Below the pieces are notes generated by a model. It was not told the DNA's origin and did not search any database. It saw only the letters and a program-made list of their open reading frames with translations. DNA of 43,461 nt. Origin: a virus. This document shows positions 23,580 through 43,394 of this stretch, piece after piece. Both the position numbers and the translations under genes were made by a program. The DNA lies in the IMG/VR virus record IMGVR_UViG_3300042691_001387, positions 1 to 43,461 of that record. One strand, given 5' to 3'. Within the stretch, counting starts at the first letter, position 1. Each line of letters opens with the position of its first letter.

Positions 23580-24070
23580 TTCCAGGTAATAAAACTATCT
23601 GGTTTTTAAATGGTGACCTTGTTAGGCTTCATCATAGTTCAAGATCAACTGGAATGGTAACTGTTTACAATATTACAAAAGATAGATTAGAAACTTGCTT
23701 TCGTAATGATTTTAGAAAAAATAGAGAGAAAGCCTACACTGTAGCAGAAACTGCAAGACTTGTCAATAGGCATCGTAAATATTTTCCATCTTTAATTAAA
23801 CGTGGAGTTATTCCACAACCAACAGGTGCAAAAGTTGGCGGTACACGAGGATGGCAAATAAGAGCATACTACTCTGAATCGCAATTAAAAGAGATACGTG
23901 ATATACTTGCAAGTGTACATATTGGTAGACCAAGAAAAGATAATTTAATAACAAATAATATGACTCCTACAAGTCAGGAGTTGACACGTAGAACTGGCGA
24001 TGGTATACTGGTTTATACAAAAACTGAAGATGGTAGATTCATACCAGTTTGGTCTGAAAGCATTAATTAA
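23525..24070 (+). CDS. Helix-turn-helix DNA-binding protein (MerR/excisionase-like)
   Basis: 181 aa. Residues ~70-125 contain AYTVAETARLVNRHRKYFPS and GWQIRAYYSESQLKEI, the pattern of MerR/excisionase winged HTH domains (helix-turn-helix, then a wing, then 'Y..S.L..I'). The basic GRPRKDN after it resembles an AT-hook, which would bind the minor groove. The N-terminal ~65 residues are of unknown type. A likely phage transcription regulator. The 3' end of the gene contains the consensus promoter for the replication operon (23981-24009), so the protein could act on a site inside its own gene. Start at 23525 overlaps the zinc-ribbon gene; a later start (MVTVYN, residue 44) cannot be excluded. Confidence 0.75.
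   Translation: MAFEPRKLESKDYNNQPIIPGNKTIWFLNGDLVRLHHSSRSTGMVTVYNITKDRLETCFRNDFRKNREKAYTVAETARLVNRHRKYFPSLIKRGVIPQPTGAKVGGTRGWQIRAYYSESQLKEIRDILASVHIGRPRKDNLITNNMTPTSQELTRRTGDGILVYTKTEDGRFIPVWSESIN
23981..24009 (+). promoter_or_regulatory. Consensus sigma-70-type promoter of the replication operon
   Basis: TTGACA (23981-23986), 17-base spacer, TATACT (24004-24009), preceded by TGG for an extended -10. It is one of the two best promoters in the window and has the same elements as the one at 41747. It lies inside the end of the HTH gene. Expected transcript start ~24016, leader ~73 bases to GTG 24089. Confidence 0.8.
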
Positions 24071-41137: not shown

Positions 41138-41719
41138 ATGGCAGAAATGGGAACAGCAGCAAAACTAATTGAAATAGCCAAGGAAGAAATAGGCTATATA
41201 GAAGGACCAAAGGATAACGAAACGAAGTATGGAGCATTCACCAAGGCAAACTTCCAGCCTTGGTGTGGAAGTTTTGTGATGTGGTGTGCAGATAAAGCAG
41301 GCGTTAAAGTCCCAAATACTGTTTACACTCCTGGTGGCGCTGCTGCTTTTAAAAAGTCTGGTCGTTGGTATGATGCACAAATATGCGATCCAGAGCCTGG
41401 AGATATTGCGTACTTCGATTTTCCTGGAGACGGTGTTGATAGAATTTCACACGTTGGAATCGTCATTAAAGATAACGAGGACGGAACTGTATGGTGCATT
41501 GAAGGCAACACTTCAGGGGATCCAAAGAAATCACAGCGAAATGGCGGAGAAGTTGTAAAGAAACTTCGTGCTTATAAGAAAAACAAAAAAGGCGTACAGA
41601 TCTCTATCGTAGGCTTTGGTCGTCCAAAGTTCAAGGGTGAGGCTAAGGCTGAGACAAAGCCTAGTAATCCTGTCAATGATGTTAAAACCTGTCCAACTTG
41701 CGGACAATCTGTTAAGTAA
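41138..41719 (+). CDS. CHAP-domain endolysin
   Basis: 193 aa. CHAP cysteine amidase/peptidase: Cys43 in PWCGSFVMWC, His105 in ISHVGIV, and Glu122/Asn124 in IEGNTSG. It would cut peptidoglycan peptide bonds at lysis. The C-terminal tail is a Lys/Ala linker (EAKAETKPSNP) followed by TCPTCGQ (Cys185, Cys188), a half zinc-knuckle that may dimerise or bind the wall. No signal peptide, so release depends on a holin. A 20-base tandem duplication covers its stop codon. Confidence 0.9.
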   Translation: MAEMGTAAKLIEIAKEEIGYIEGPKDNETKYGAFTKANFQPWCGSFVMWCADKAGVKVPNTVYTPGGAAAFKKSGRWYDAQICDPEPGDIAYFDFPGDGVDRISHVGIVIKDNEDGTVWCIEGNTSGDPKKSQRNGGEVVKKLRAYKKNKKGVQISIVGFGRPKFKGEAKAETKPSNPVNDVKTCPTCGQSVK

Positions 41720-41747
41720 AGGCTAATAGTCTTAAGTAAAGGCTAAT
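41712..41747 (+). repeat. Tandem duplication at the end of the endolysin gene
   Basis: TTAAGTAAAGGCTAAT occurs at 41712-41727 and 41732-41747, a 20-base period with only the 4-base spacer AGTC. The first copy contains the endolysin stop; the second ends on the first base of the TTGACA box. It looks like a recent slippage event. Confidence 0.85.
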
Positions 41748-41775
41748 TGACAGGCAAAAATCTTCCTGGTATACT
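41747..41775 (+). promoter_or_regulatory. Consensus promoter of the proteasome-like gene
   Basis: TTGACA (41747-41752), 17-base spacer, TATACT (41770-41775) with TGG extension; same elements and spacing as the replication promoter at 23981. Expected start ~41782, 22 bases before ATG 41804. The TTG in the -35 box is in frame with the gene but is not the start. Confidence 0.85.
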
Positions 41776-41803
41776 AGATAGACAGGAAAATCTAGGGGTA
41801 GGC

Positions 41804-42325
41804 ATGACTTGTATAGCAGCAATAATTAAAGACGGTAAGGCCTATATGGCTGGTGATAGAGCCGTTGTAGATGAATCACAACAAATGAAATCAGACATTC
41901 CTAAAATTTGGAAGTCTGGTGATTATTTATTTGGCTACTGTGGAACACTTGAAGGTCAAATAATTCAAAATAACTTTGTACCACCAAAACCAGAAGGCAA
42001 TATTGATAAGTTTATGCGTGGTAAATTCCTAGAAGAAATTAAAAAGTTTTATGAAAAATGGGGTATGCCAGCAGACAAAGATTCTGATCTAACACTATTA
42101 ATATGTGTTAAAGGAAGAATGTATGAGCATGAATCAATTAATTTAACAATGATTTCCTATGACACAAATTTTGCTGCCATAGGTTCAGGTTCAGCCTACG
42201 CAATGGGTTCTTTACATGCCACCCAAAACTATAAAGATCCAAAGCGTAGGCTGACTTCAGCACTAGATGCTGCAATTTTATATAGTCCACATTGCTTATA
42301 TCCAATTGACTTTTTAAGCAAGTAA
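41804..42325 (+). CDS. Proteasome-beta/HslV-like Ntn hydrolase
   Basis: 173 aa from ATG 41804, chosen because it places Thr2 as the mature N-terminus and lies downstream of the promoter. After Met removal, Thr1 (TCIAAII), Asp17 (AGDRAV) and Lys33 (DIPKIW) have exactly the proteasome beta-subunit spacing, and AIGSGSAYAMGSL corresponds to the Ser129-Gly region. No propeptide, as in HslV. No unfoldase (HslU, Mpa/ARC) or alpha subunit is encoded in the window, so it would act alone, with host partners, or in a small ring. Substrate unknown. Such proteins occur sporadically in phages. The strong independent promoter suggests early or constitutive expression. Confidence 0.85.
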   Translation: MTCIAAIIKDGKAYMAGDRAVVDESQQMKSDIPKIWKSGDYLFGYCGTLEGQIIQNNFVPPKPEGNIDKFMRGKFLEEIKKFYEKWGMPADKDSDLTLLICVKGRMYEHESINLTMISYDTNFAAIGSGSAYAMGSLHATQNYKDPKRRLTSALDAAILYSPHCLYPIDFLSK

Positions 42326-42340: not shown

Positions 42341-42544
42341 ATGAATCATATTCATGAGGAAGACTTGTCTCCAGATGAGCAGGAGTTTGGCATCTGGCTA
42401 GAAAACGGTATTGAAAAAGGCTGGGTAACAGAACCATTTTGTAACACACACGATGGTGGTTACCAATATATGAGTGAAGAAGAATTGGAAGAATGGGAAG
42501 CAGGAGGCGACCCATGCCAACATGTAATCAGAATAATGCTATAG
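42341..42544 (+). CDS. Small acidic protein of unknown function
   Basis: 67 aa with an estimated strong net negative charge: HEEDLSPDEQEFGIWLENGI and YMSEEELEEWEAGG. It contains FCNTHDGGYQYMS and PCQHV, so Cys/His pairs might bind metal. Size and acidity fit a DNA-mimic or host-takeover protein, but that is speculation. Driven by a clear promoter and probably translated from a leaderless mRNA. Stop is 7 bases before the subtilase start. Confidence 0.65.
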   Translation: MNHIHEEDLSPDEQEFGIWLENGIEKGWVTEPFCNTHDGGYQYMSEEELEEWEAGGDPCQHVIRIML

Positions 42545-42551
42545 GAGAATA

Positions 42552-43394
42552 ATGAAAAAAGTAGTGGGGTTAGTAAGTATTTTGTTTATCGCTGCATTTT
42601 TGCCAGCGGTATCTGCAAATGAAAAGCCAGCAATTGCAATTATTGATACAGCAATTGATACAACACAGGTAAGTGTTACACATGAGGTTTGTCTCATGGA
42701 AGAAAAGCGATGCCCAAATAAGCAGTCATATATGGAAGGTCCAGGATCTGCACATATGCCTGCAACAAAAGGCTTTGAGCACGGTACCAAAATGGTACAG
42801 ATTGCTCAATCAATTAATCCAAATATGAACATTGTGTTTATTCGTATTTTCCCACAAGATAATCGTGGAAATGTTATGCGTAATGGTGTAAATGTAAATA
42901 GCACTGTTCGTCAAGCACTTGAATGGGTTGCTAATAATAAGATTAAATTTAATATTGTTGCTGTATCTGCATCAGTAGGAGAAACAAAATTCTCTACTCG
43001 TGGAAACTATTGTCCAGTTAATCCAGCACTTCGTAGTGCAATTGTAAATCTGCAAAACATGGGCGTTGGTTCTTTGTTTGCAACTGGTAATCGTTATGAC
43101 TATTCTAAGATTGATTATCCATCATGTGTCGCAGAAGCAATTGCAGTTAGTTCTGTAGGAGTTCGTGGCAATGTTGAGCGGTATGCAAATCGATCTGCTG
43201 AAGTAGATTTCTTTGCTCTTGGTACAGTAAATGGATCAGTAGGAACATCTGCTGCTACTGCTGCACTTGCAGCATATTGGGCTAAGAATTATAAGGGTAA
43301 CTTCTCTGATACTTATAATCATCTAAAGTCTATTGCTAAATCTGCATCGCTAGAATCATTTACAACTAATTTGTTTGTAGATGTAAATAGTTAA
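42552..43394 (+). CDS. Secreted subtilisin-like serine protease (S8)
   Basis: 280 aa, ATG behind TAGGAGAA. Signal peptide with cleavage likely after AVSA (residue ~22). Catalytic triad in S8 order: Asp32 (AIIDTAID), His77 (FEHGTKM), Ser233 (GSVGTSAATAALAAYW); oxyanion Asn180 in ATGNRYD. There is no inhibitor propeptide between signal and Asp32, unlike most subtilisins. Two cysteine pairs (47/54, 154/192) may form disulfides, suiting an extracellular enzyme. A phage-encoded exported protease could trim host surface proteins, degrade wall-bound inhibitors or aid release. All triad residues are present, so an active enzyme is expected. Confidence 0.88.
   Translation: MKKVVGLVSILFIAAFLPAVSANEKPAIAIIDTAIDTTQVSVTHEVCLMEEKRCPNKQSYMEGPGSAHMPATKGFEHGTKMVQIAQSINPNMNIVFIRIFPQDNRGNVMRNGVNVNSTVRQALEWVANNKIKFNIVAVSASVGETKFSTRGNYCPVNPALRSAIVNLQNMGVGSLFATGNRYDYSKIDYPSCVAEAIAVSSVGVRGNVERYANRSAEVDFFALGTVNGSVGTSAATAALAAYWAKNYKGNFSDTYNHLKSIAKSASLESFTTNLFVDVNS

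Follow-up and report, generated by a model that had tools for sequence, protein, structure and literature searches.

The virus record IMGVR_UViG_3300042691_001387 (43,461 bases, GC approximately 38%), analyzed over its full length and referred to herein as the window, encodes a 173-residue protein that, as judged from its sequence, belongs among the group I proteasome homologues, specifically the AAH/PPH sort carried by phages, and is not HslV itself. We lean, with little more than even confidence, toward an unfoldase-independent Thr1 peptidase that degrades peptides or unfolded proteins during infection, its activity, ring assembly, substrate, host, and contribution to recycling being what we infer. 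More tentatively, the gene may belong to a scheme of selected phage peptide recycling, wherein a promoter-controlled slot in probable actinophages is filled either by the unfoldase-free Thr peptidase or by an unrelated DUF885 metallopeptidase.

Gene, active site, and predicted fold

The peptidase gene occupies positions 41804-42325 of the plus strand and is preceded by an RBS-like AGGGG element (41794-41798, +) read from the sequence, of which the AGGG before the start is kept in nearly all relatives. The original prediction had placed the start at 41747, where there is no start codon; the TTG at that position belongs to the -35 box (TTGACA) of a promoter and shows promoter-type conservation in relatives, and the true start is the ATG at 41804. 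The claim that the protein lacks a propeptide holds, because relatives conserve the promoter upstream of the gene and not an N-terminal extension. The N-terminus reads M-TCIAAIIKDGKAYMAGDRAVV, and residues are numbered here from the one after Met. All of the elements foreseen for the protein after Met removal are present, namely Thr1 (codon 41807-41809, +), the expected nucleophile once Met is removed, Asp17 (41855-41857, +), Lys33 (41903-41905, +), and a GSGS element at residues 126-129 (42182-42193, +), which reads G-S-G-[SA] in most relatives. Across the clade, all 128 distinct sequences share Thr1, Arg18, and Lys33, and residue 17 is always acidic (Asp in 71, Glu in 57); Asp17 is thus found in the window protein but not across the family, a 97% identical relative (L001) carrying Glu17. 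The Thermoplasma proteasome also has Glu17, and Asp17 and Glu17 should therefore both work.

Assignment to the proteasome-beta/HslV-like family is based on PHROG 1040 ("peptidase HslV family"; E 3e-19 over residues 1-171, a match far beyond chance), together with the AlphaFold model and dN/dS values described below. The Pfam Proteasome domain (PF00227) matches at 19 bits, slightly under its cut-off of 22.4, and neither the HslV equivalog TIGR03692 (22.2 bits vs a cut-off of 157.75) nor the bacterial 20S proteasome beta equivalog TIGR03690 (18.7 vs 191.9 bits) reaches its threshold. With tblastn, 161 phage records match the peptidase, every one at less than 60% identity, and IMG/VR contributes more than 100 close-relative loci at 47-97% identity. 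Because dN/dS against ten relatives is 0.02-0.19, the sequences indicate a functional protein under purifying selection. When the profile is compared with solved sequences, BPH and HslV come out on top. The phylogeny against HslV and proteasome families that had been proposed as a check, taken with profile comparisons, sets the clade outside HslV and beside AAH/PPH-like phage and plasmid proteins, a placement that is claimed only coarsely, the tree having few, divergent rows and long branches. A scan with an Ochrobactrum phage homologue as query returned no loci, and scans of genome contigs returned no cellular relatives or host. In Moorella phage MTATph1 (L051, CDS0188), the deposited start falls within the gene, so that the annotation loses Thr1; an upstream TTG restores the conserved N-terminus (M)TCIAG with Thr1.

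The AlphaFold model of the peptidase (monomer, 37 sequences) has a pLDDT of 92.6 and a pTM of 0.90, and in it the protein has the complete four-layer proteasome beta/HslV/BPH fold. Structure searches put BPH and HslV level at the top (Z approximately 20) and 20S beta next, and all 1000 top Foldseek chains, when re-aligned to the model, give a Z of 8 or more; model residue 2 (Thr1) superposes on residue 1 of HslV and of BPH. A structural resemblance to some other Ntn family, the penicillin acylases for example, had been named as evidence that would speak against the original prediction, and no such match appears among the best 50 rows of either structure search. The short first (49-57) and long second (67-86) helices of the model do not map cleanly onto H1 and H2 as described for phage homologues, and the protein has 173 residues vs approximately 140 in PPH, which is without helix H2 (PMC8665760). 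A proteasome-beta-like, probably active enzyme, as had been proposed, is consistent with the invariant Thr1 and Lys33, the acidic residue 17, the dN/dS values, and the predicted fold.

Promoter, neighboring genes, and DUF885 replacement

The promoter (TTGACA-N17-TATACT; 41747-41775, +) comprises a -35 box at 41747-41752 and a -10 box at 41770-41775 and ends 28 nt upstream of the ATG. Its description as one of the two strongest in the window is borne out, as TTGACN-N16-18-TATANT occurs on the plus strand only at 23981 and 41747. A like promoter precedes the gene in 92 of 93 clade loci, with a score of 10 or 11 of 12 (a level that approximately 5% of 150-nt stretches drawn at random from the window also reach) and the end of the -10 box 21-30 nt before the start. 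The other near-perfect TTGACA-N17-TATACT on the plus strand (23981-24009) lies in the gap preceding the replication genes. Immediately upstream of the peptidase promoter, the endolysin gene ends in a repeat (approximately 41713-41747), with TTAAGTAAAGGCTAAT occurring twice, 4 bases apart.

The peptidase gene is followed by the gene for an acidic protein of 67 residues, small67 (42341-42544, +), with invariant C-x-T-H and G-G-D-P-C motifs, which could bind metal. In 82 of 86 loci, small67 starts 16 nt past the stop of the peptidase gene; with small67 as the query, 74 of 80 loci carry the peptidase gene, as do 72 of 80 in a sample of greater divergence, all of these counts being drawn from related phages and hence not independent. 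The small67 family has more than 500 occurrences in IMG/VR. A role for small67 as a dedicated partner of the peptidase is weakened by its occurrence with DUF885 and without any proteasome-like gene, as in Mycobacterium phage Aminay (gp2; L272) and after what appears by eye to be a ribonucleotide reductase small subunit (L339, L347, L354). The promoter and small67 are the constant neighbors of the peptidase gene; endolysin, S8 protease, Hsp20, and lipoprotein genes change, and a link to lysis is weakened by the variable position of the endolysin gene. In the window, the adjoining S8 subtilisin-like protease (42552-43394) has the signal-like N-terminus of a secreted protein; its Asp32, His77, Asn180, and Ser233 are kept in more than 90% of 44 distinct relatives, and no match to it was found in isolated phages. 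An Hsp20 gene near the peptidase in 63 loci (e.g., L001:8784-9233) lends the neighborhood a protein-quality flavor.

Six small67 loci in the first sample have no peptidase gene: in two the contig breaks off, and in the other four a DUF885 gene (PF05960, E <1e-113) lies immediately upstream of small67. A DUF885 query returned seven contigs (38-85 kb) from related phages, which do not represent independent events; in all seven, small67 is the next gene, a TTGAC[ATG]-N16/17-TATACT promoter precedes DUF885, and the proteasome-like gene is absent, four positive records having been matched in the same search. The flanks of the swapped contigs comprise p107 on the left in 7/7, terL, p387, and p500 on the left in most, and the S8 protease on the right in 6/7. 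Published work places DUF885 in Peptidase_MA, a clan of zinc metallopeptidases (PMC12572635), and an HESVPGHH stretch is invariant in six aligned sequences; the DUF885 protein is thus a probable metallopeptidase, its activity being predicted. Because DUF885 takes the place of the peptidase behind the same promoter and ahead of the same gene, the slot most likely supplies peptide hydrolysis, with a Thr peptidase and a probable metallopeptidase alternating behind one promoter. The alternative, that the slot holds assorted cargo, could draw on one locus with an extra gene between the peptidase and small67 (L018), yet no non-peptidase cargo was seen in the slot within the clade. The dedicated promoter and the metallopeptidase-clan replacement point to plain peptide hydrolysis, and not to regulation, unfolding, or ligation.

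The same replacement bears on whether the enzyme could instead serve in counter-defence or host takeover, as a protease specific for certain regulators or defence proteins of the host. A strong promoter of its own would suit such a task, as would the accessory status of the gene (in L316 the slot is empty, with neither gene); nevertheless, substitution by an unrelated metallopeptidase-clan gene suggests a broad and not a target-specific function, buried-site proteasome-fold enzymes usually lack sequence specificity, and neither a defence gene nor a target was recognized, which together make a counter-defence role unlikely.

Host, partner proteins, and competing explanations

The DNA polymerase III alpha subunit and terminase of the window are 54-55% identical to those of Streptomyces phages of the Stanwilliamsviridae sort, and WhiB, an actinophage marker (PMC10202952; PMC6802176), scores above cut-off in 14 of 16 longer relatives. 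Because the relatives carry WhiB and the nearest phages are Streptomyces phages, the virus probably infects a low-GC actinobacterium. Freshwater Nanopelagicales would be the likeliest hosts, the low GC being part of the reasoning; no literature on proteasomes in this group was found. Two phages isolated on "Ca. Planktophila", E7 and F5 (OX376640 and OX376641; PMC10202952), encode a distant member of the peptidase family, and relatives of their HslV-like protein were found in 199 IMG/VR stretches.

The original prediction noted that neither an alpha subunit nor an unfoldase accompanies the peptidase in the window, and for the unfoldase searches agree: the HslU/ClpX-type domain (PF07724) has no match in the window or in 16 longer relatives, many of them incomplete, and the AAA domain (PF00004) has no match in the window and only three sub-cut-off matches in those relatives, all 14 control genomes having been matched. 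The related records are fragments, in which a phage-borne unfoldase could be missed. Of the fates originally proposed, a stand-alone enzyme is favored, because no unfoldase was found in the records and a metallopeptidase-clan gene replaces the peptidase in sister phages.

Under the favored explanation, the peptidase would be a cytoplasmic enzyme of the N-terminal-threonine type, belonging to the group I (HslV/BPH-like) proteasome-homologue family and expressed together with small67 from its own strong promoter. Methionine aminopeptidase would strip Met1 and expose Thr1, which, supported by Lys33 and Asp/Glu17, would attack peptide bonds, as the conserved residues and predicted fold suggest. 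The enzyme would most likely act independently of any ATP-driven unfoldase, would probably assemble itself into a ring like that of BPH, and may break down peptides or unfolded host or phage proteins. Given the nutrient-poor habitat, one guess is that the resulting amino acids might be recycled in an actinobacterial host that is itself short of nutrients.

If the host is indeed an actinobacterium, the peptidase might instead dock on host 20S alpha rings or on the Mpa/ARC unfoldase and thereby redirect host proteolysis, given that many actinobacteria possess 20S proteasomes. Such docking is quite unlikely, however, as the protein resembles HslV and BPH, neither of which forms alpha rings, more closely than it does bacterial 20S beta, whose equivalog cut-off it falls far short of.

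A virion, head-maturation, or lysis role is improbable for the window peptidase. Its gene lies downstream of terL and adjoins the endolysin gene, and the distant HslV-like gene of L055 (4001-4537) and of L365 (17155-17691; Planktophila phage F5) comes right after the portal gene. In F5, no other head-maturation protease was recognized among the ten head-module proteins scanned; as the slot after portal often holds such a protease, the proteasome-fold protein could conceivably fill that role in the E7/F5-type clade. The window, however, already has a head maturation protease (276-1586; PHROG 9427, E 5e-120), the endolysin gene shifts relative to the peptidase gene among relatives, and the T5-like and Vibrio phage homologues sit among nucleotide-metabolism genes.

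Not every proteasome homologue is a protease, connectase being one that acts as a protein ligase (PMC8665760), and the window protein could be a proteasome-fold ligase or amidase as well. We consider this distinctly improbable, since the AlphaFold model lacks the helical insert that connectase has between S3 and S4 and the metallopeptidase-clan replacement favors hydrolysis. Lastly, action as HslV with a host HslU, as the fold match to HslV (Z 20.3) might suggest, is very improbable: the protein scores 22 bits vs the HslV cut-off of 158, and a host HslU is itself unlikely because the window and its 16 relatives (fragmentary records) contain no HslU/ClpX-type gene and Table 1 of the survey of proteasome homologues (PMC8665760) has no HslV mark for Actinobacteria.

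Comparison with known systems

Phage proteasome homologues are named in papers on phages (PMC7289586; PMC7823757), and they have been catalogued since 2021 by authors who found no informative gene context for them and no AAH-encoding phage specific to Actinobacteria, the window clade being probable actinophages (Fuchs et al., 2021; PMC8665760). No functional study of them was found in the open-access literature. New here are the actinophage clade, its conserved promoter, and the DUF885 swap. The window peptidase resembles AAH/PPH in its group I fold, conserved Thr1 and Lys33, lack of a propeptide, carriage by tailed phages, and lack of an AAA+ partner gene, and profile comparisons relate it to the Mesorhizobium/Streptomyces/Moorella-phage group (E 1e-36) and the T5-like/Vibrio-phage group (E 1e-27) of that sort. 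The window clade is nevertheless separate, with no more than 36% identity to any of those compared, and differs in having Asp17 or Glu17, its own conserved promoter, an adjoining small67, and DUF885 swaps.

Among cellular proteins, HslV (ClpQ; 1m4y) is similar in length and in predicted fold over 164 residues, in contrast to its poor equivalog score and to the lack of an HslU gene near the window peptidase. The beta-proteobacterial proteasome homologue BPH (5ovt) is matched over 166 residues (Z 20.1, rmsd 2.4 Å), has no propeptide either, and is described as apparently unfoldase-free; it is, however, a chromosomal bacterial protein, only 17-20% identical, and a shown tetradecamer, whereas the window peptidase is known from sequence and a monomer model. 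If the phage enzyme likewise works alone, it would represent a natural minimal proteasome-type protease without ATP.

Finally, the HslV-like protein of E7 and F5 shares its PHROG with the window peptidase, and all 61 distinct members of its clade keep Thr1, Asp17, and the Lys, which is residue 34 in them; it differs in being approximately 25-30% identical, in lying after the portal gene, and in having no small67. This cousin makes it possible to address in culture why phages of very abundant freshwater bacteria carry a peptidase of their own.
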